A DNA stretch of 64,000 nt from Pedobacter namyangjuensis (GTDB taxonomy: Bacteria; Bacteroidota; Bacteroidia; Sphingobacteriales; Sphingobacteriaceae), in assembly GCF_003313325.1 (NCBI RefSeq), contig NZ_QMHQ01000002.1, forward strand, positions 310,001-374,000, written 5' to 3'. Below the pieces are notes generated by a model. The model saw only the letters and a program-made list of their open reading frames with translations, searched no databases and was not told the DNA's origin. Of this stretch, positions 9,051 through 58,976 are shown one piece after another (within the stretch, counting starts at the first letter, position 1; every line of letters begins with the position of its first letter). The translations under genes and the position numbers were made by a program.

Positions 9051-10142
9051 ATGAGCAAACACGGTAGAATTTTGGTGGCCATGAGTGGCGGGGTTGATAG
9101 TTCGGTAGCGGCAGTAATGTTGCATGAGCAAGGTTATGAAGTAATTGGCCTAACCATGAAGACCTGGGACTATGCTACGTCTGGTGGAAGTAGCAAAGAA
9201 ACTGGCTGTTGCAGTTTAGATAGTATAAACGACGCACGTACGCTTGCCGTAAACTATGGTTTTCCTCATTATATTTTAGACATTAGAGATGAATTTGGCG
9301 ATTTTGTAATCGATAATTTTGTAGACGAATATTTGGCTGGTCGTACGCCAAACCCTTGTGTTTTGTGTAATACGCACATTAAATGGGAAGCATTGCTAAA
9401 ACGTGCCAACAAACTAGATTGCGAGTTTATTGCAACAGGTCATTATGCTAATATTCGCCAACAAGACTCTGGCAGATATGTCATTTCTAAAGGATTAGAC
9501 GAGAATAAAGATCAATCTTATGTACTTTGGGGTGTATCTCAAGAGAATTTAGCCCGTACAAAATTCCCTTTGGGCAGTTTTGCTAAATCAGATATTCGCC
9601 AAATGGCAATGGATATGGGGCAAGAGGAACTTGCTAAAAAAAGCGAGAGTTACGAGATTTGTTTCGTTCCGGATAATGATTACAGAGCCTTCTTAAAACA
9701 CAAAGTTGAAGATTTGGAAGACCGAGTTGCCGGTGGAAATTTCATCAATAGCCAAGGTATGATTATCGGGCAACATAAAGGCTACCCTTTTTATACCATT
9801 GGTCAGCGTAAAGGTTTGGGCGTTGCTTTTGGCGAACCTATGTTTGTTACGCAAATTTTGCCAGAAAGTAATACGGTAGTTTTAGGCAGAGCCGATGAAT
9901 TGGAGCGTAAAGAGGCAATGGTAAGAAATATAAATCTTATTAAGTATGAGAACATTAACGAGCCTTTAGACAACGTAATAACTAAAATACGTTACAAAGA
10001 TGCTGGCATGTTAAGTACTATTGTGCAAGAGAAAGATAGAATGCGTGTGGTTTTTGATCATAACGTTTCTGCAATTGCACCAGGTCAATCTGCTGTATTT
10101 TACGAAGGAAAAGATTTGTTGGGCGGTGGTTTTTTAGTTTAA
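9051..10142 (+). CDS. mnmA: tRNA 2-thiouridine(34) synthase
   Basis: 363 residues from the ATG at 9051; an upstream in-frame extension to 9030 would start inside the promoter. The N-terminal PP-loop RILVAMSGGVDSSVAAVML binds ATP for adenylation of U34. The two catalytic cysteines are in RTPNPCVLCN and ESYEICFVPD. The central FYTIGQRKGLGV and the C-terminal beta barrel (PGQSAVFYEGKDLLGGG) are typical of MnmA. It places sulfur on the wobble uridine of tRNA-Lys, -Glu and -Gln. Length and motifs are normal. It forms its own transcript between divergent and repeat-rich intergenic DNA. Confidence 0.97.
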   Translation: MSKHGRILVAMSGGVDSSVAAVMLHEQGYEVIGLTMKTWDYATSGGSSKETGCCSLDSINDARTLAVNYGFPHYILDIRDEFGDFVIDNFVDEYLAGRTPNPCVLCNTHIKWEALLKRANKLDCEFIATGHYANIRQQDSGRYVISKGLDENKDQSYVLWGVSQENLARTKFPLGSFAKSDIRQMAMDMGQEELAKKSESYEICFVPDNDYRAFLKHKVEDLEDRVAGGNFINSQGMIIGQHKGYPFYTIGQRKGLGVAFGEPMFVTQILPESNTVVLGRADELERKEAMVRNINLIKYENINEPLDNVITKIRYKDAGMLSTIVQEKDRMRVVFDHNVSAIAPGQSAVFYEGKDLLGGGFLV

Positions 10143-10151
10143 ACTAAAATT

Positions 10152-10224
10152 TGCAATTCCGATTTTGGGTGAATCTGATAACCGGGATTCTTTACAATAG
10201 ATTCTTCGCTTTGCGGTGAATGAC
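10152..10224. repeat. extragenic palindromic repeat, GTCATTC/GAATGAC family
   Basis: A degenerate copy of the element found near 45.2 kb. The left arm (ATTCCGATTTTGGGTGAATC) and right arm (AGATTCTTCGCTTTGCGG followed by TGAATGAC) face each other around a short spacer, immediately after the mnmA stop codon. Confidence 0.6.
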
Positions 10225-10272
10225 AAAATACTGAACACCCATTTCCTCTTTTACGATTCACTTATTTGATGC

Positions 10273-10359
10273 GTCATTGCCAGCTCGACTGGCAATCGTA
10301 ATGCGAAAGTTGGCAAATGCTATTGCTTACTTTAAGATTCCCGTTTTTACGGGAATGAC
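10273..10359. repeat. extragenic palindromic repeat, GTCATTGCC variant
   Basis: Begins GTCATTGCCAGCTCGACTGG and ends GATTCCCGTTTTTACGGGAA followed by TGAC, so the outer ends are inverted repeats and each half forms its own small hairpin. It sits between mnmA and the convergent nucleotidase gene. Confidence 0.55.
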
Positions 10360-10366
10360 GAACACA

Positions 10367-11314
10367 TTAAGAATCTAGCTTATTATTGATCAAATAAGGT
10401 GTGCCGAACTTCATTTTTTTATCCTTGTAAGCTTCAAAATAATAATCGATTCTTCCTAGATTAATTCCCGCAAATCCTACCTGATTAATGGTAGTTATTT
10501 TATTATCTAAGTTTTTTACATCTTCAGGAACATCCATAAACGAATGCGTATGTCCACCAATAATCAAATCAATGTTTCTTGTGTTTTTAGCCAAAACTTG
10601 GTCAGAAACAGCGTTGTCTCTATATCGATAACCTAAATGAGATAAGCAGATTACAAGATCACACTTATAACCATTCTTTAATATAGAGGCGGTTTCATTC
10701 GCTTTTACAATCGGATTTAAATACTGCGTTTCTCCATAGTTTTTAGGATCTACCAAGCCCTTTAGTTCTATACCTAAACCAAATACCCCAATTTTTAGTC
10801 CGGCTTTTTTAAAGATTTTAAACGGCTGTGTAGATTTTGATAACTGTGTGTTTGAAAGATCGTAATTTGCGATTAGAACAGGAAAATTAGCATGAGGTAA
10901 TTGTTTATAAAAACCTTCTACACCATTATCAAAATCATGGTTGCCCAGCGTAGTTGCATCGTAACCCATCTGGCTCATCAATTTAATCTCTAGCTCGCCA
11001 CCAAATTTATTAAAGTAGGGCGTTCCTTGAAAAATATCTCCAGCATCAAGTAACAGCACATTATCCTGCTCAGCTCTAATTTTTTTGATCAATGCGGCTC
11101 TTCTTGCGCTCCCACCTAAACCCTGATTCCGAGATCCGTCCATCGGAAAAGGCTCTATCCTACTGTGAACATCGTTAGTGTGCAAAATGGTTAATTTTTG
11201 CAAACGGCCGTTAGCAAATGCGTCTAAAGAATTTATGCTCAACGCAACTGCAGCACTAGCTATTCCACCAGTTCTAATAAAATTACGGCGATTAATTTTT
11301 AGCAATTCTTCCAT
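10367..11314 (-). CDS. metallophosphatase domain protein, N-terminal half of a split UshA-type 5'-nucleotidase
   Basis: 315 residues with a Tat-like leader (NRRNFIRTGGIASAAVALS). The calcineurin-type metal site is complete: LHTNDVHSRIEP, LLDAGDIFQGTP, TLGNHDFDNG, CLSHLGYRYRD and IIGGHTHSF. This is the catalytic domain of UshA-like 5'-nucleotidases and phosphoesterases, which hydrolyse nucleotides in the periplasm. The substrate-recognising C-terminal domain is absent and is instead encoded by the preceding gene (11292-12044), whose end overlaps this start by 23 bp. Translational coupling is likely, and the two products probably work as a heteromer. Confidence 0.9.
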   Translation of the reverse strand: MEELLKINRRNFIRTGGIASAAVALSINSLDAFANGRLQKLTILHTNDVHSRIEPFPMDGSRNQGLGGSARRAALIKKIRAEQDNVLLLDAGDIFQGTPYFNKFGGELEIKLMSQMGYDATTLGNHDFDNGVEGFYKQLPHANFPVLIANYDLSNTQLSKSTQPFKIFKKAGLKIGVFGLGIELKGLVDPKNYGETQYLNPIVKANETASILKNGYKCDLVICLSHLGYRYRDNAVSDQVLAKNTRNIDLIIGGHTHSFMDVPEDVKNLDNKITTINQVGFAGINLGRIDYYFEAYKDKKMKFGTPYLINNKLDS

Positions 11315-51943: not shown

Positions 51944-52033
51944 TATTCTCATCTCATTTTAATTTCCGCCAGCAATAATGCACTGTAATTATTTAATATA
52001 AAGTTAGTTAAACCACTTAACTCTAAACACTAC

Positions 52034-52048
52034 TTAGAATTATTCTAA
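52034..52048. promoter_or_regulatory. 15-bp palindrome upstream of the TonB receptor operon
   Basis: TTAGAATTATTCTAA is a perfect 7-1-7 inverted repeat, just upstream of the promoter TTG. It resembles the binding sites of Fur-superfamily or Irr-type iron regulators in style, but no regulator gene lies near. Confidence 0.6.
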
Positions 52049-52053
52049 ATAAC

Positions 52054-52084
52054 TTGCGTAGTTGGTGTAAAATTTACACCTTTG
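52054..52084 (+). promoter_or_regulatory. promoter of the TonB receptor/cytochrome peroxidase operon
   Basis: TTG at 52054-52056 and CACCTTTG at 52077-52084 are 20 nt apart, one base off the TAnnTTTG consensus. It lies between two copies of a TTAGAATnATTCTAA-type palindrome. Confidence 0.55.
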
Positions 52085-52091
52085 CGCCAAA

Positions 52092-52106
52092 TTAGAATCA
52101 GTCTAA
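52092..52106. promoter_or_regulatory. second 15-bp palindrome, overlapping the expected transcript start
   Basis: TTAGAATCAGTCTAA is a 7-1-7 inverted repeat with one mismatch, 58 bp from the first. It covers the region from the -7 box to the start codon, a position where bound protein would block transcription. Confidence 0.55.
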
Positions 52107-52107
52107 A

Positions 52108-54903
52108 TTGAAACAGTTATATTTTTTACTCATCGTCTTATTATTTGCGCACAGGGGAAGTGCGCAAAATGCTAATCTTCTTACCGCTAGGGTTGTTGAT
52201 GCGAAAGGTTTGCCAATTGAACTTGTTAACGTTAAGGTAACTGAAACAAACCAATACGCTGTTACCGATAAAAATGGTGTCTTTAAGATAACTGGCATTC
52301 TAACGAACTCCAGTGTTAATATTCAGTTCTCGATTATCGGTTATCAAACACTTAAAATGCCTTTGATTATTAAATCAGGAGAGAATAACATGGGCAACAT
52401 TGCATTAAAAACGCTCGATTTAAGTTTAGAAAGCATTGAAATCAATGCCAAACGAAACTACTCTGGAAGCACAAATTCTTCGTTAATAATCAGCAGGGAT
52501 TTGATTGAGCAAACTCCAGCATTAAGTGTTAATGATTTATTAAACCAGATACCGAACAGAAAAATACAACCACCTTCTCTACAACGAGTACAGAATTTAA
52601 ATTTAAGATCCGCTTATGTACCAACAAGCACCGGACGGGGCGATTTTGAATTAAATAATGCTTTTGGTATTGCTATAATTATGGATGGAAATGTGATTAG
52701 TAATAACGCGAATATGCAAAGCTTTAATGTAGGTAGAGCTGGACAAGGACAATCTTTTGTAAGTAGTGGCAATTATGGGTTAAATGGTGCACCATCACCG
52801 GTGGTAAATGGTATTCCTTCTACTTCTTATTCTGGCGATTACACCTTCGGAGGTACAGATTTAAGGCAAATACCCGCAGATAATATCGAGAGCATAGAGG
52901 TAATTGCAGGTATTGCACCAGCAAAATATGGCGATTTAACAGACGGTGCAGTAATTATTGAAAGGCAAGCTGGTAAGTCGCCTACTTATGTTCGAATGCA
53001 GCTAAGAGACAACGCTACCTCATACGGCTTTTCGAAAGGTTTTGAACTTAATCCGAAATATGGGGCTATAAACGTTGGCGTAAATTATGTTAACTCTTAC
53101 GAAGATAATCGCGATAAATTAAAGGCTTATCGGAGAGTAAATACCAATGCCATGTGGACTAACTCATTTGGCAACAAAAATCAGTTAAAAAACACTTTTA
53201 GTATAGATTACGGAAGAAATTTAGATGGGATTAGATTTGATCCAGACGACGAAAAAAGTACTAAAACGAGGTTTGATAGCTGGAGTTTTAGTATGGCAAA
53301 CAGAAGCAATTATCGTTTTGAAACAGGATTTTTGAAAAACGTAGGTTTAAGCTTGAGATATTCAACAGGGCATCAGGTTAGTTATAAAGAAGAACTTGTT
53401 AACCAACCTTACATTTTATACACAACGGCAACCACGACAGGTATACATGAAGGGACTTACGACACTGGCGTTTACACAGCTCAATCTTTAATTGATGGTA
53501 AGCCAATAAATGCCGGTGCAAACTTAGATTTTACTGGTGGATTTAGAACTGGAGATCTTGCTCATAACCTATCATTTGGTACAAGCTTTAGTTATAGCGC
53601 AAATAATGGACTAGGGCAGACAATAGACCCAAATCAGCCACGAAGTGGCCCAAGAGTTGCCACCACTTCTATAGGAGCAACTAGCTCTGAAAGATTCTAT
53701 GATTTTAGATTAGCAATAGCTCAGAAAGATGTTGGCTTCTATTTAGAAGATCAATTCACAGCTAATTTATTAGGTAAACCGTTAAATGTGAGAGCCGGTG
53801 TAAGAACCGATATTCAGAATGGCTACGCGTCCCTTTCGCCGAGAACAAATATTAATTACGAACTTAACAAACACGTTAGATTAGGTGTTGCTTATGGGCT
53901 TTCATTCAAATCGCCAGGTTTAGCTCAGCGGTATCCTGGACCAACTTTTTACGAAATCCCACTGCTAAATTCTTATAATGGTAAAGTTAATGAGAGTACT
54001 TATTTAGTTTATGTAGAACGATATGAGCCTACAAGTGACGGATTGAAACCGTCTAAAAGTGAGAGTATAGAACTATCGGCACAAATAAAGCTTGATAAAT
54101 TTAATCTATCTGTGGCGGCGTTTAATAAAAAGTCTAGAAATGGAATTTCAACAGTGCAAAATTTTCAGACTATTGAGTTGCCGATGTATACTGCCACCCA
54201 AAATGCAGGTGCAAAACCAACCGTAACACAAACAGGTCTAAGACCTTATGCTATGAACTACTTTACGTTTAAAAACGATTTATCTTCCGATAATCAAGGG
54301 TTCGAAGTTATCTTAAACACACCTGAAATCAAAGAGATTAAAACCTCTTTTAACCTAAGTGGCGGTTTATTTAGAACATCCTATGGTTCTACATCGAATA
54401 GTTTTAGCAGCAAAGTTCCAAATACAATTCCAACTGACCCTAACTATGCGTTTATTGGCGTCTACGAACCGACTAATACAAAGGCTTATTTTAGTAACGG
54501 TAGAATTACTAGCAGTACCCACATACCAAAATTAAGCTTGGTAGTACAATTTGTTGCAGAGTTTGATATCCTTAACAAAACAATTAATACAGCAAGCTCT
54601 AGAATCCCACTTGGTTATTATGATAGAATTAATCAATATGTTCCAATAACAAATTTTGATCAGAGTAATCCTTCTTATGGACATTTGTATATAACGCCTG
54701 AAGAGCAGAAAGAAAATGATTTACCAAAAATTATCTCAAACTACCATTTCAGTATAGCAAAAGAGATAAAGAAAAGATTCAAATTCGCTTTTAACGTATA
54801 CAATGTATTTAATTATCAGCCATATTATTTAACTACCGCTAACACCTATAAGTTTCCAAACAACGCCCCCACTTTCGGAGCAGAACTATCTATAAAACTT
54901 TAG
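52108..54903 (+). CDS. TonB-dependent receptor of a putative metal-regulated operon
   Basis: 931 residues starting at a TTG (KQLYFLLIVLLFAHRGSAQ after it), since no in-frame ATG lies near. A carboxypeptidase-regulatory-like domain (LTARVVDAKGLPIELVNVKV) is followed by the plug (ALSVNDLLNQIPNRKIQPPS, IESIEVIAGIAPAKYGDLTD) and a barrel ending in APTFGAELSIKL. It is followed in one operon by DUF4876, a second barrel protein and a di-heme peroxidase. Two TTAGAAT-type palindromes in its promoter suggest a ligand under metal control, perhaps a metal chelate, which is inference. Confidence 0.9.
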   Translation: MKQLYFLLIVLLFAHRGSAQNANLLTARVVDAKGLPIELVNVKVTETNQYAVTDKNGVFKITGILTNSSVNIQFSIIGYQTLKMPLIIKSGENNMGNIALKTLDLSLESIEINAKRNYSGSTNSSLIISRDLIEQTPALSVNDLLNQIPNRKIQPPSLQRVQNLNLRSAYVPTSTGRGDFELNNAFGIAIIMDGNVISNNANMQSFNVGRAGQGQSFVSSGNYGLNGAPSPVVNGIPSTSYSGDYTFGGTDLRQIPADNIESIEVIAGIAPAKYGDLTDGAVIIERQAGKSPTYVRMQLRDNATSYGFSKGFELNPKYGAINVGVNYVNSYEDNRDKLKAYRRVNTNAMWTNSFGNKNQLKNTFSIDYGRNLDGIRFDPDDEKSTKTRFDSWSFSMANRSNYRFETGFLKNVGLSLRYSTGHQVSYKEELVNQPYILYTTATTTGIHEGTYDTGVYTAQSLIDGKPINAGANLDFTGGFRTGDLAHNLSFGTSFSYSANNGLGQTIDPNQPRSGPRVATTSIGATSSERFYDFRLAIAQKDVGFYLEDQFTANLLGKPLNVRAGVRTDIQNGYASLSPRTNINYELNKHVRLGVAYGLSFKSPGLAQRYPGPTFYEIPLLNSYNGKVNESTYLVYVERYEPTSDGLKPSKSESIELSAQIKLDKFNLSVAAFNKKSRNGISTVQNFQTIELPMYTATQNAGAKPTVTQTGLRPYAMNYFTFKNDLSSDNQGFEVILNTPEIKEIKTSFNLSGGLFRTSYGSTSNSFSSKVPNTIPTDPNYAFIGVYEPTNTKAYFSNGRITSSTHIPKLSLVVQFVAEFDILNKTINTASSRIPLGYYDRINQYVPITNFDQSNPSYGHLYITPEEQKENDLPKIISNYHFSIAKEIKKRFKFAFNVYNVFNYQPYYLTTANTYKFPNNAPTFGAELSIKL

Positions 54904-54906
54904 CAT

Positions 54907-56247
54907 ATGAAAATTACAAGAATTGCGTCAATAGTTATAATCTCAATTGCAATTGTTTTTAACGCGTGCAAAAAATACCAAGAAGATACTACTGGAATTC
55001 ATCCAGTCAGATTTCAGGTTTCTACCTCCTATTCGTCTGACGAATTAGGAAAAGTTTTACCTAAAGCGCAAATAGAAATAAAGTTTAAAAACATTAAAAC
55101 TAACATAGAGCAAAAATACTACACGAATGCTGATGGAGTATTGGCGCTAGATTCCATTTCGCCAGGTGAATACGATATCTCGGCATCCATAAAAATACCT
55201 GCCACGACATATACCACTTTAACCGGAGAAACTGTTGATAAGGAAGTTATCTTTAACGCATCCGAAAAGGCAAAAACGATAACGATTGAAGACAGGCAAA
55301 GTATTAGTTTAAAATTAATCTCAGGCGTTACTGGACCATGGGTAATTAAACAGATTTATTACGCGGGCTCAAATACAACAACTGGGTCTAGTTTCCGAGA
55401 TCAGTTTATAGAAATTTACAATAATAGCGATTCGGTATTATATGCAGACAGTCTTTATATTGGTGAAGCTATTGGTATACAAAACTTTACCGCCATTAAT
55501 ATGCATAGGCTACCTAATAGCCAATTTGATTGGAGCAAATCTCAAGGAATGCCAGCGAATATAGATGCAAATAACGATTACATTTACACTAGAGCATTGC
55601 TAATGATACCGGGTACAGGTAAACAATACCCAGTAAAACCTGGCGAAAGTATTGTTTTGGCACAAACCGCAATTAATCATAAGGCGCCATTTGTTGGTAG
55701 TGATGGAAAAACGATTACAGCTAGAGACCCTTCTATAACTGTTGATTTAAGCGGTGCTGATTTTGAAGCATACTACGCTCCTTTTCTTCCAAGACCCCTT
55801 GCATCTGATATTGATAATCCTAACGTGCCTAATGTAGAAGTTTTATCCTACAGCGGAACTGATTTAATATTAGACAATCCGGGTAGAATGGGTTATGTAA
55901 TTTTTAAAAATAAAGGAAGCATAGATATAAAAGACTTAAATCGCTACGCCTATCCGAGCATAGCTGCGCCATCTTCTACAGCAGACAAGTTTTACCAAAT
56001 ACCTAACAGCTTTATTATAGATGCTGTAGAAACTCAGCAAAATACCGCTGCCGCTAGAGTGCCAAAAAAACTAGGCCCAGCTTTAGATGCACTTTACTGT
56101 TACGTGCCAAATGGCGCATATTCATCTCAGTCGGTGATTAGAAAAACAGAACGTACAGTAGATGGACGAAGAATCCTGAAAGACACCAATAACTCGGCAG
56201 AAGATTTTGATTTTTTACCGTTAGCTCTTCCAAGAGGATTTAAATAA
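54907..56247 (+). CDS. DUF4876 lipoprotein
   Basis: 446 residues with a lipoprotein signal (ASIVIISIAIVFNACKKYQE). The N-terminal part looks like a beta-sandwich of the carboxypeptidase regulatory kind (LGKVLPKAQIEIKFKNIKTN, GVLALDSISPGEYDIS), and the main part shows the DUF4876 mark PWVIKQIYYAGSNTTTG and DQFIEIYNNSDSVLYADSLY. Probably outer-membrane anchored and exposed to the surface. It is separated from the receptor gene by 3 bp. In this family it seems to serve as a receptor partner, though direct evidence is lacking. Confidence 0.85.
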   Translation: MKITRIASIVIISIAIVFNACKKYQEDTTGIHPVRFQVSTSYSSDELGKVLPKAQIEIKFKNIKTNIEQKYYTNADGVLALDSISPGEYDISASIKIPATTYTTLTGETVDKEVIFNASEKAKTITIEDRQSISLKLISGVTGPWVIKQIYYAGSNTTTGSSFRDQFIEIYNNSDSVLYADSLYIGEAIGIQNFTAINMHRLPNSQFDWSKSQGMPANIDANNDYIYTRALLMIPGTGKQYPVKPGESIVLAQTAINHKAPFVGSDGKTITARDPSITVDLSGADFEAYYAPFLPRPLASDIDNPNVPNVEVLSYSGTDLILDNPGRMGYVIFKNKGSIDIKDLNRYAYPSIAAPSSTADKFYQIPNSFIIDAVETQQNTAAARVPKKLGPALDALYCYVPNGAYSSQSVIRKTERTVDGRRILKDTNNSAEDFDFLPLALPRGFK

Positions 56248-56276
56248 TAGCCAGCAAAAATTTCCGCAAAAATAAA

Positions 56277-57833
56277 ATGAAGCAAATCCATATCTATATA
56301 CTTATCATTTTTAACACAATTACTGTTGCTTTTGCACAGAAAATTGATACGACGAACGTTGGCACAACAAATCTAAATTTTGTAACCGACTCAGCAAGTT
56401 ATGCTGGTTACAATTTTGCAAAGACAAGTCCTTTTTACATCAAATCGCTAATGCCTTCAAAGTTCAATAATTTAACGGCAACGTACAGTTTTGAAAAAGG
56501 TGGTTTAACTCTTGCGCAAATGCCAAAGAAGTTAAATTTTACCAATTTTAGTACAGAAGGCATCTCTCAATTGCAGTCTGTAAGTATTTGGGGGCAATTT
56601 TCTTATCAAAGAGTTGTAGAAGATAGCGTATCTTTTGCCCATCAAACAAGAAATAATATAGCAAATCCTTATTATTTCGGATCTCAAAAAAGCGTTAGTT
56701 ACCAACGTGCACTTTATAATTTAAAAGCACTAGCTAGCAGAAATTTCATTAATAATAATCTACCAATTGGACTAGGTGTTGATTACAGAATTGGAAATCA
56801 TTACTCAACAAATGATCCACGTGGCGATATCGGTGACTACCAACTTAATCTTATCGGAACAATTGGATACCATTTTACTAAACAGTTAAGCATTGGGGCC
56901 GGTTATAGATATGGATATGGACTTGAAAAAGTAAATGTTGCGTATAAAAATGCTAGCCTATCACAAGGAAGCTTAATTCCTGAGTTCAATAACTATTTAA
57001 TTAGCGGTTACGGAGAACCAGAAATTTTTAACACTAGAAGAACTTTCCAGAACAATTCAACTAGAAACGGAATAGATGCCTACTTGACATATAATAACGA
57101 TAATTTTGGAAATTTCAACTTGAGCTACCAAAGTATTAAAGAAAAACAGGACTATAATTATAGAACTAGCGTTGGGATTGAACATTTCGTAAACTTTAAC
57201 ATCGTTAACGAGCAATATAGATTACTTTGGTTAAAGAATCTAGGAAAAAATAGCGTGAGTGTAGAACTAGGTTACCAAACAAATACAGGTGACAACTATG
57301 TTCTTAAATATTTAGCAAACAGCTATCTTTTTAAAAATAATAATATTAACGCAAAGGCAATTTACACACTTAAACAAAACCAATACATTCATAACTTTGT
57401 AGGCAGTTTAAGTAAATATGAAGAGCAAAAGATAGATGGGATTGCTGGTAATAACATCCAATTTAATCGTTTAAACTACAATTTAGGTTATAGTATAAAT
57501 CACACAGACAAGAACTCACATAACTTAGGAATAGGTATTAGTGGATTTTACACACAATACCTGGATTCTCAATTTAATGTATTATTACTTAATGAGGGTA
57601 GTTTTACAAAAGACGTAATTTATCATGATTATGCATATAATACCGCTGCCAGATACGGTGGTTCACTATCAGCTAATTATAATATTCCGTTGTTTACACA
57701 AATACATGCTGGCGTTAAAATTACAAGTACGTATATGCGTAGAGGCGAGTTACAGAACATCAACAGAACATTAACTAGTGTTCCAGGAAAAGATAGGTTT
57801 TTTAATAATATCAGCTTAAATCTGTATTTTTAG
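56277..57833 (+). CDS. outer-membrane beta-barrel protein, DUF6850-like
   Basis: 518 residues. Signal peptide IHIYILIIFNTITVAFAQ, then a chain of alternating amphipathic strands with a terminal aromatic residue (NNISLNLYF), as in barrel proteins. The region YAGYNFAKTSPFYIKSLMPS and LNFTNFSTEGISQLQSVSIW matches what I know as DUF6850, always next to DUF4876 and TonB receptors. No plug domain is present, so it would be a separate pore or a structural partner. The gene starts 29 bp after DUF4876. Confidence 0.75.
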   Translation: MKQIHIYILIIFNTITVAFAQKIDTTNVGTTNLNFVTDSASYAGYNFAKTSPFYIKSLMPSKFNNLTATYSFEKGGLTLAQMPKKLNFTNFSTEGISQLQSVSIWGQFSYQRVVEDSVSFAHQTRNNIANPYYFGSQKSVSYQRALYNLKALASRNFINNNLPIGLGVDYRIGNHYSTNDPRGDIGDYQLNLIGTIGYHFTKQLSIGAGYRYGYGLEKVNVAYKNASLSQGSLIPEFNNYLISGYGEPEIFNTRRTFQNNSTRNGIDAYLTYNNDNFGNFNLSYQSIKEKQDYNYRTSVGIEHFVNFNIVNEQYRLLWLKNLGKNSVSVELGYQTNTGDNYVLKYLANSYLFKNNNINAKAIYTLKQNQYIHNFVGSLSKYEEQKIDGIAGNNIQFNRLNYNLGYSINHTDKNSHNLGIGISGFYTQYLDSQFNVLLLNEGSFTKDVIYHDYAYNTAARYGGSLSANYNIPLFTQIHAGVKITSTYMRRGELQNINRTLTSVPGKDRFFNNISLNLYF

Positions 57834-57836
57834 CCC

Positions 57837-58976
57837 ATGAAGAAAGTATTGTTTGCGCTGGCGGTAACGTTCGCATTTTTATTGTCGCTCTCTTTTAGAA
57901 CTACCGATTTTTTGGTGGGCGATGATATTCCGGTAGATTCGCTACGCAAACTATATTCTAAACCAACTTCTCAATGGCCAAAACCAACCATTGATGCTGG
58001 CGTTAAGTTTGAAGAATTGGGCCAATTACTACCGTCTCCATTAAACTTAAAAAACGATTCTGTTAAAAAGCTAGTAGAACTTGGCAAGGTTTTGTTCTTC
58101 GACCCTCGCCTATCTGGCTCTAACCAAATATCATGCTCTAGTTGTCATGTTCCGGATTTGAACTGGGCCGATGGTCGCCAGGTTTCTGTCGGTCACGATC
58201 ATCAAAATAACATCCGCAATGCGCCTTCTTTAGAAAATGTTTGGTTTTTTAAAAAGCTATTTTGGGATGGCAGGGCAAACAGTTTAGAAGAACAAGCTTC
58301 AATGCCGGTCGAGGCACATAACGAAATGCATCAAGATGTTAAATCGTTACCAAAAAAACTAAGAAAAATTAAAGGATATGCACCTTTTTTTAAAGCAGCA
58401 TTCGGCACAACAGATATTACCAACGAACGGATAGCTTCCAGTTTAGCTACCTTTCAGCGTAGTTTAAGTAGCCGACGCACAGATTTCGATAGATTTTTGG
58501 CGAATAACAAGCAAGCACTAACAGATCAGCAAGTTTTGGGCTTACATTTGTTTAGAACCAAAGCCCGTTGTATGAATTGCCATAATGGGCCATTCTTTAC
58601 CGATAACGATTTTCATAATGATGGTTTAACCTATTATGGTCGTAAGTACGAAGATTTAGGCTTGTATAATGTTACCAAAAAACCAGAAGACGTTGGTAAG
58701 TTTAAAACTCCAGGCTTACGAAATGTAATGCGTACGGCACCTTGGTTCCACAACGGTTTATTTGCCGATATAGACGGGGTAATGAACATGTACAACATTG
58801 GTATGCCAGATCAGCGAGTTAAACCAGCGCAAATGAATGATCCGTTATTACCAAAAAATGATAAGCTTTTGAGAGGCATTAGATTAAGTAATGCCGAAAA
58901 AGATGCCGTAATTGCTTTTCTCCATTCTTTGTCATCTGCACCTGTCCTTATACGTGTAGAGGAATTGCCAAAATAA
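57837..58976 (+). CDS. di-heme cytochrome c peroxidase (MauG/CcpA family)
   Basis: 379 residues with a signal peptide (MKKVLFALAVTFAFLLSLSF). Two c-type heme sites are visible: Cys100-Ser-Ser-Cys-His104 and Cys245-Met-Asn-Cys-His249. The signature FDPRLSGSNQISCSSCH and LWDGRA-like FWDGRANSLEEQASMPVEA are typical. The family reduces H2O2 or oxidises protein and peptide side chains. It follows the barrel gene by 3 bp and ends the receptor operon; such a peroxidase beside TonB receptors is also seen in methanobactin-type copper systems, so it might act on the imported ligand or its metal. Confidence 0.93.
   Translation: MKKVLFALAVTFAFLLSLSFRTTDFLVGDDIPVDSLRKLYSKPTSQWPKPTIDAGVKFEELGQLLPSPLNLKNDSVKKLVELGKVLFFDPRLSGSNQISCSSCHVPDLNWADGRQVSVGHDHQNNIRNAPSLENVWFFKKLFWDGRANSLEEQASMPVEAHNEMHQDVKSLPKKLRKIKGYAPFFKAAFGTTDITNERIASSLATFQRSLSSRRTDFDRFLANNKQALTDQQVLGLHLFRTKARCMNCHNGPFFTDNDFHNDGLTYYGRKYEDLGLYNVTKKPEDVGKFKTPGLRNVMRTAPWFHNGLFADIDGVMNMYNIGMPDQRVKPAQMNDPLLPKNDKLLRGIRLSNAEKDAVIAFLHSLSSAPVLIRVEELPK

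Follow-up and report, generated by a model that had tools for sequence, protein, structure and literature searches.

We analysed a 64,000-nucleotide window of the Pedobacter namyangjuensis genome (contig NZ_QMHQ01000002.1, positions 310,001 to 374,000; coordinates below count from the first base of the window), in which four genes stand behind a promoter flanked by two palindromic boxes. The genes encode a TonB-dependent receptor (52108..54903, 931 aa, TTG start), a DUF4876 lipoprotein (54907..56247, 446 aa), a DUF6850 outer-membrane beta barrel (56277..57833, 518 aa) and a MauG-like di-heme peroxidase (57837..58976, 379 aa). All lie on the + strand within 52108–58976, with intergenic gaps of 3, 29 and 3 bp, which agrees with the initial annotation of the region. 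We found that this is probably an operon for uptake under iron starvation, a familiar type that here includes an unusual, widely kept enzyme.

Box 1 (TTAGAATTATTCTAA, 52034..52048, + strand) is a perfect 7-1-7 palindrome immediately 5' of the –33 element of a predicted Bacteroidota-type promoter (52054..52084, + strand). The promoter combines TTG at 52054–52056 (–33) with CACCTTTG at 52077–52084 (–7), both elements being assigned from what we take to be the Bacteroidota promoter consensus. TTTG was seen by eye at the –33 place in 13 of 14 promoters compared. Box 2 (TTAGAATCAGTCTAA, 52092..52106, + strand) is a palindrome imperfect on one side; it overlaps the likely transcription start and ends one base before the receptor start codon. 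Palindromes do flank the promoter, as had been noted earlier, and boxes on either side of a promoter form a layout suited to repression. A further perfect palindrome, GGTGTAAAATTTACACC, occupies 52064–52080, within the promoter and between its elements. It was considered as an operator and set aside, as it is not kept in the relatives compared; a genome search allowing up to three mismatches returned 42 places versus 30 for the control, with the exact copy only at 52064–52080.

The Fur box of Riemerella anatipestifer, another member of the Bacteroidota, is given as ATTTAGAATTATTCTAAAT in the results of a study that took four gene promoters for gel shifts; the abstract of the same paper gives the E. 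coli box sequence instead (PMC5609570). A variant of the Fur box, with a gel shift, is described at Riemerella rhuB (PMC10986502). In these gel shifts Fur bound the promoters. PgFur reportedly fails to bind the E. coli Fur box (PMC6613475). By eye, positions 52032–52050 match 18 of the 19 bases of the published Riemerella box and positions 52090–52108 match 16 of 19, and this ATTTAGAATTATTCTAAAT-type box stands close to the start codon, as in a Bacteroidota Fur regulon. A literature search for ATTCTAAAT in Bacteroidetes found nothing. Loose 15-base patterns were no commoner than chance in the window (22 versus 18.2 expected, up to two mismatches) and were not over-represented across the genome (at one mismatch, 42 and 27 matches versus 37 and 39 for the reversed pattern). 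Because there is no enrichment in either, single matches to the loose pattern mean little, and the support for the boxes rests on their conservation and on the regulon.

To describe the regulon we built a 23-position box model, R1, on 27 sites of this operon type, together with a control, R2, made by shuffling the columns of the same alignment; the number of candidates scored per genome was the same for both (150 in the genus, 54 in the phylum). The two operon boxes (22.7 and 21.5 bits) were the top two of 38 R1 matches in the host genome at E up to 10. Across 26 Pedobacter genomes (E 0.15), R1 gave 166 matches in 26 of 26 genomes, a sum of per-genome counts in which palindromes may count on both strands and in which training promoters recur (13 of the 68 rows examined), versus 2 matches in 2 of 26 for R2. 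Among 148 phylum genomes (E 0.03), R1 matched in 52 and R2 in 3.

Box sites in the host genome (E 0.002 to 1.2) include a receptor-HmuY pair with two boxes, a PBP2-FecCD-receptor locus (with an ATPase there by eye), an ankyrin-DUF2271-PepSY/flavodoxin locus (with an ApbE-like gene by eye), a DUF6607 gene beside a receptor-PepSY pair with two boxes 60 bp apart, an AraC/receptor locus and aconitase B. In the genus, 68 stretches were examined (28 returned by the search and 40 picked from its list), and 36 of them carry a receptor-profile gene within 350 bases: 13 belong to the cassette studied here, some of these rows being the same promoter twice, and 23 are other receptors (32–66 bits). The 29 phylum stretches have 40 nearby reading frames, counted on both flanks; 39 were scanned, one overlapping frame having been dropped, and 3 stretches had no gene in range. 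The 39 genes comprise 8 receptor plugs, 3 AraC, 2 glutamyl-tRNA reductases, 2 Fur, 2 ferrous-iron transport proteins, 1 heme oxygenase and 1 PepSY, among others. Both fur genes carry the box at their own start (locus L266, 1047–1490, – strand; locus L291, 1492–1992, + strand) and are likely autoregulated; their products are 42% identical to the host Fur and 21–23% identical to the host Zur-like protein. We also noted a box-like site next to a deoxyhypusine-synthase-like gene, with no evident link to iron, in two Pedobacter genomes (L145, G000:C24:330680, where a cytochrome c gene is also present, and, by eye, L192).

The search for further copies of the palindrome, proposed in the initial annotation, thus returned sites whose recognisable targets are for the most part iron and heme genes, far above the shuffled control, as in a Fur regulon. 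The host genome encodes two Fur-family proteins and one DtxR-family protein. A DtxR-type regulator was considered and rejected, as the sole DtxR-family gene found adjoins an NRAMP-like gene (by eye). We take the regulator to be Fur because the box matches the Riemerella Fur box, because of the genes in its regulon and because of this position of the DtxR gene; the signal is taken to be iron starvation because other box sites are followed by genes for heme, siderophores and ferrous iron and, in two genomes, by fur itself. Judged by sequence, the palindrome is a Bacteroidota Fur box, and very probably Fur binds here and the operon responds to iron. The metal-sensing repressor postulated earlier would accordingly be an iron sensor.

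We gathered 80 loci with the peroxidase as query and found the order receptor-DUF4876-DUF6850-peroxidase intact in 38 of them, distributed over Sphingobacteriaceae, Chitinophagaceae, Cyclobacteriaceae and Flavobacteriaceae. In 12 of 13 Pedobacter/Arcticibacter operons (L059–L071, among them P. frigiditerrae, L059, and P. polaris, L061) the box pair is kept 58–60 bp apart while the surrounding sequence drifts, and in 11 of the 13 the boxes begin 74 to 79 and 16 to 19 bases upstream of the start of the receptor gene. The exceptions are L070, which has two boxes 59 bp apart and a start called too early, and L065, which has one box. A search for the box covered 51 of the 80 loci, all 38 intact operons included. 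With E values up to 5 and at most 100 bases to the receptor start allowed, 22 of the 38 have a box, 18 of these at E ≤ 0.2. Another cassette of the family (L257) has sigma-factor-like and FecR-like genes in front (by eye). At L099 (~9300–10700) of Pedobacter psychrotolerans, remnants of a receptor-like start and of the last part of the peroxidase were seen, the middle of the operon being lost.

Family profile scans covered eight proteins of the window. The receptor has plug and beta-barrel domains above the Pfam cut-offs and an N-terminal carboxypeptidase-like domain (PF00593, PF13715, PF07715), which bears out the earlier description of an uptake operon. The second product matches PF16215 (E 3.7e–34) and also shares the fold of BT_1938: its predicted model (pLDDT 86.4) fits the solved structure 4q1z (Z 30.1, 2.4 Å, 263 residues), and a transthyretin/CnaB-like domain lies in front. 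Its Cys21 is invariant in 35 of 35 aligned sequences, and we therefore regard it as a lipoprotein. Loci with DUF4876 genes respond to iron in other Bacteroidota. Without iron, the DUF4876/receptor loci PG1019-22 of P. gingivalis and BT3625-33 of B. theta go up 20.8- to 214.5-fold and 36.7- to 128-fold, respectively, and BT1933-39, which includes BT_1938, goes up 3.5- to 7.4-fold (PMC10434189). A P. gingivalis DUF4876 gene is also listed in a hemin-response table (PMC10470040).

The third product, a DUF6850 barrel (PF21012, E 6.6e–73), has 18 strands by our own count from an AlphaFold2 model (mean pLDDT 89.7), and N-terminal helices. By fold it matches porins and receptor barrels in general, which names no function (best CymA, Z 18.8, 288 residues), the model reaches a TM of ~0.3–0.4 versus FadL and siderophore receptors, and a sequence profile gave zero matches to the PDB up to E 1. 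No literature on DUF6850 was found. Among 201 genomes of the family, 57 encode this domain with a score above cut-off.

The fourth product is a CCP_MauG protein with PF03150 (E 1e–51) and two heme-binding motifs, CSSCH and CMNCH, whose Cys and His are invariant in a 25-row alignment. Its best solved-structure matches are cytochrome c peroxidases; MauG and the entry 6e1c ('Di-heme enzyme'), which we take to be an MbnH, are also matched. Neither Tyr319 nor Trp143 varies in any of 55 aligned rows, which comprise the host protein and those relatives from the 80 loci that score above 350 bits. The same holds for all 25 rows of a set with proteobacterial sequences, which takes in three of the lower-scoring relatives left out of the first. 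Read without gaps, Tyr319 aligns with MauG Tyr294, the distal ligand, and with the tyrosine of 6e1c; the HMMER alignment to MauG places a three-residue gap there and pairs Tyr294 with the next tyrosine. A tyrosine ligand marks MauG, while cytochrome c peroxidases have Met or His (PMC7567364). A Met or His ligand, as in the classical enzymes, is thus absent from the Tyr319 position in all 55 rows, in line with the earlier naming of a MauG-type rather than a classical peroxidase. The protein scores 216.5 bits against TIGR03791 (MauG, cut-off 443.85) and 214.5 bits against TIGR04039 (MbnH, cut-off 362.85), and 10 of 10 relatives tested likewise score too low. Because the MauG tyrosine is present and the scores are far below both cut-offs, we place the enzyme, on its sequence, in a separate MauG-like branch.

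Relatives of the peroxidase also occur apart from the operon. Two stand-alone Pedobacter peroxidases (L089, L098) are each closely preceded by a Fur box of their own (E 0.021 and 0.056, respectively), which supports the view that the enzyme has a role under iron starvation and is not just a neighbour of uptake genes. Seventeen proteobacterial peroxidase loci have a large adjacent gene; ten of these genes were tested, and 6 of the 10 have a plug or STN domain and are TonB-receptor-like. Three proteobacterial loci (L112, L117, L118) combine sigma- and/or anti-sigma-like genes (by eye), an STN-type receptor and the peroxidase, an arrangement that resembles the methanobactin regulatory layout.

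The host genome holds a second receptor-DUF4876-DUF6850 cassette (L236, G000:C12:816500-827000, and L244), without the peroxidase. It adjoins ABC genes, a CobW-type GTPase gene and genes for small His-rich proteins (by eye), and no R1 match lies near it among the matches listed. Palindromes that could form a zinc box were sought in a few intergenic stretches and nothing convincing emerged. This cassette is perhaps a paralog for another metal, possibly zinc. When 56 receptors were placed in a tree, the 44 linked to a peroxidase fell on one side of one branch (support 91; 1 change, with 0 of 500 shuffles as low), although the linked and unlinked sets came from different queries, which favours such a split.

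Taken together, these observations are consistent with a Fur-controlled iron-acquisition operon whose peroxidase acts on the imported ligand, an explanation to which, as a whole, we assign a probability of roughly 0.4. In iron-replete cells, Fur loaded with ferrous iron would occupy both boxes and shut the promoter off; iron shortage would lift this block and allow expression. The TonB receptor, together with the DUF4876 lipoprotein, would then catch and import an iron-bearing ligand, and the DUF6850 barrel could form a second outer-membrane channel, for import or for export. The MauG-like enzyme, exported to the periplasm, would apply peroxide-derived oxidising power to the imported ligand there, most likely opening or degrading its organic carrier so that the iron is let go. 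This action on the ligand is a guess that we hold tentatively, as the likeliest reading of the enzyme. The wider proposition appears doubtful to us: a third MauG-like branch in at least two phyla would be coupled to TonB receptors as a carrier-opening enzyme for foreign iron chelates, and its oxidative destruction or modification of the carrier in the periplasm would free the iron with no need for a cytoplasmic esterase or ferric reductase.

Several observations weigh against this explanation. No box match was found within 100 bases of the receptor start (E up to 5) in 16 of the 38 intact operons, namely all 10 Chitinophagaceae-type operons (L073–L077, L079, L081–L083, L105) and six more; Flavobacterium operons have a weak box (E 0.4–0.8) or none. 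In the operons lacking a box, either the operator has changed or control differs. The expectation that a true operator would be conserved upstream of orthologous operons therefore held in Sphingobacteriaceae and in some Cyclobacteriaceae and Flavobacteriaceae, and failed for these sixteen. Some box sites also point elsewhere. In the host genome, C23:49074 and C24:330680 score similarly or better and have no clear iron gene, and several phylum sites lack an evident iron link (tRNA synthetase, EF-type GTPase, 2-oxoacid dehydrogenase). The peroxidase is not required for the core of the system: the cassette of the first three genes is also found with other fourth genes, which encode a 740-residue protein, a 206-residue protein, or a 291-residue protein together with an amino-acid permease. 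The recurrent fourth genes (L032, 2940–4421; L034, 2969–3589; L236, 8121–8996) have no Pfam match at E 0.001. Conversely, at L072 (8636–11137) a MATE gene is directly followed by the peroxidase and the other three genes are absent there. The published tables on iron-induced Bacteroides and Porphyromonas loci name no peroxidase in them (PMC10434189). Finally, the receptor gave zero matches to solved structures at E 1e–5.

The peroxidase might instead mature a partner, oxidising Trp or Tyr residues of DUF4876, the barrel or the receptor into a metal-binding site, as MauG does with methylamine dehydrogenase. The tyrosine at the MauG ligand position would fit such a role, as would the invariant Trp in the FWDGRA stretch, which we take to be the inter-heme tryptophan, and the receptor tree, in which receptor and peroxidase appear to be inherited together. 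However, a comparison of 44 linked with 12 unlinked cassettes revealed no Trp special to the linked ones (special meaning present in ≥85% of linked and <35% of unlinked sequences). At this threshold DUF4876 has no special position, the barrel has one tyrosine (Y350) and the receptor has five, all non-aromatic. This comparison weakens the partner-oxidation idea, as does the lack of an MbnP-type family among the eight proteins scanned, and we consider it unlikely. Equally unlikely, in our view, is a periplasmic scavenger of H2O2 that protects iron-importing cells or replaces iron-costly catalase, with no direct role in uptake. Its Pfam family is that of the cytochrome c peroxidases, which are also its best structural matches, and the stand-alone copies under a Fur box would suit this function. 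Yet the ligand position holds Tyr in 55 of 55 rows where cytochrome c peroxidases have Met or His (PMC7567364), and scavenging leaves the steady pairing with one receptor clade unexplained.

A change in the redox state of iron for an inner-membrane carrier, with the enzyme acting as a ferric reductase or ferroxidase, has been assumed for EfeB-type peroxidases beside imelysins. Di-heme peroxidases do occur beside imelysin-like iron proteins (PMC3143127), and another box-controlled locus of the host encodes a PepSY/flavodoxin reductase. EfeB-type enzymes form a different peroxidase family, however, and the operon contains no imelysin or Ftr1 family, so that we regard this possibility as improbable. 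The initial annotation had drawn a link to copper-binding peptides, by which the operon would take up copper or another peptide-bound metal in the manner of methanobactin systems. MbnH/MbnP pairs have been described in the vicinity of MbnT-like receptors that are accompanied by homologues of MbnI and MbnR, and TIGR04052 is the MbnP family (PMC3621798). In some proteobacterial relatives the order is sigma-like, anti-sigma-like, receptor and peroxidase (by eye), and the CobW-type GTPase beside the second host cassette hints that paralogs serve other metals. Against copper stand the Fur box, since iron and heme genes make up most of its other targets that can be recognised, the score of the peroxidase below the MbnH cut-off, and the absence of a TIGR04052 gene from the eight proteins scanned, a search that did not extend to MbnA and MbnB. 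The copper link did not stand up to these data, and we judge it very unlikely.

Overall, the initial interpretation is partly supported. The Fur box removes most of the surprise from the locus. Di-heme enzymes beside metal receptors are a puzzle, and later work on MbnH and MbnP reportedly exists; in 2013 the roles of these two proteins were called a mystery (PMC3621798). A compact operon under a known iron switch makes such a role testable. Moreover, the box model yields a candidate list of Fur targets across Bacteroidota.

No description of the four-gene operon was found in the literature searched, one limited collection, but its parts resemble several known systems. The MbnT/MbnH/MbnP methanobactin loci likewise place a TonB receptor beside a di-heme enzyme with a tyrosine at the same place (6e1c), whereas here no MbnP partner was found, the enzyme belongs to a different branch and the operator points to iron, not copper. 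MauG shares the di-heme family and the position of the tyrosine ligand; the score against its model is far lower than the cut-off (216.5 versus 443.85 bits), and no methylamine dehydrogenase family occurs among the window proteins scanned. In imelysin-EfeB/DUF1111 iron operons a di-heme peroxidase is linked to iron uptake, as here, but the peroxidase family is another one and the imelysin has no counterpart in our operon. In PG1019-22 and BT3625-33 a receptor stands beside DUF4876, like the gene pair described here, and is strongly induced by iron starvation; unlike our operon, they show no peroxidase in the published tables (PMC10434189). The Fur-regulated heme and siderophore operons, such as the receptor-HmuY pair and Riemerella rhuB, are alike in operator, TonB receptor and iron control. 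The receptor-HmuY pair also has a partner lipoprotein, HmuY in place of DUF4876. Compared with these operons, the one described here carries two additional components, the DUF6850 barrel and the di-heme peroxidase.

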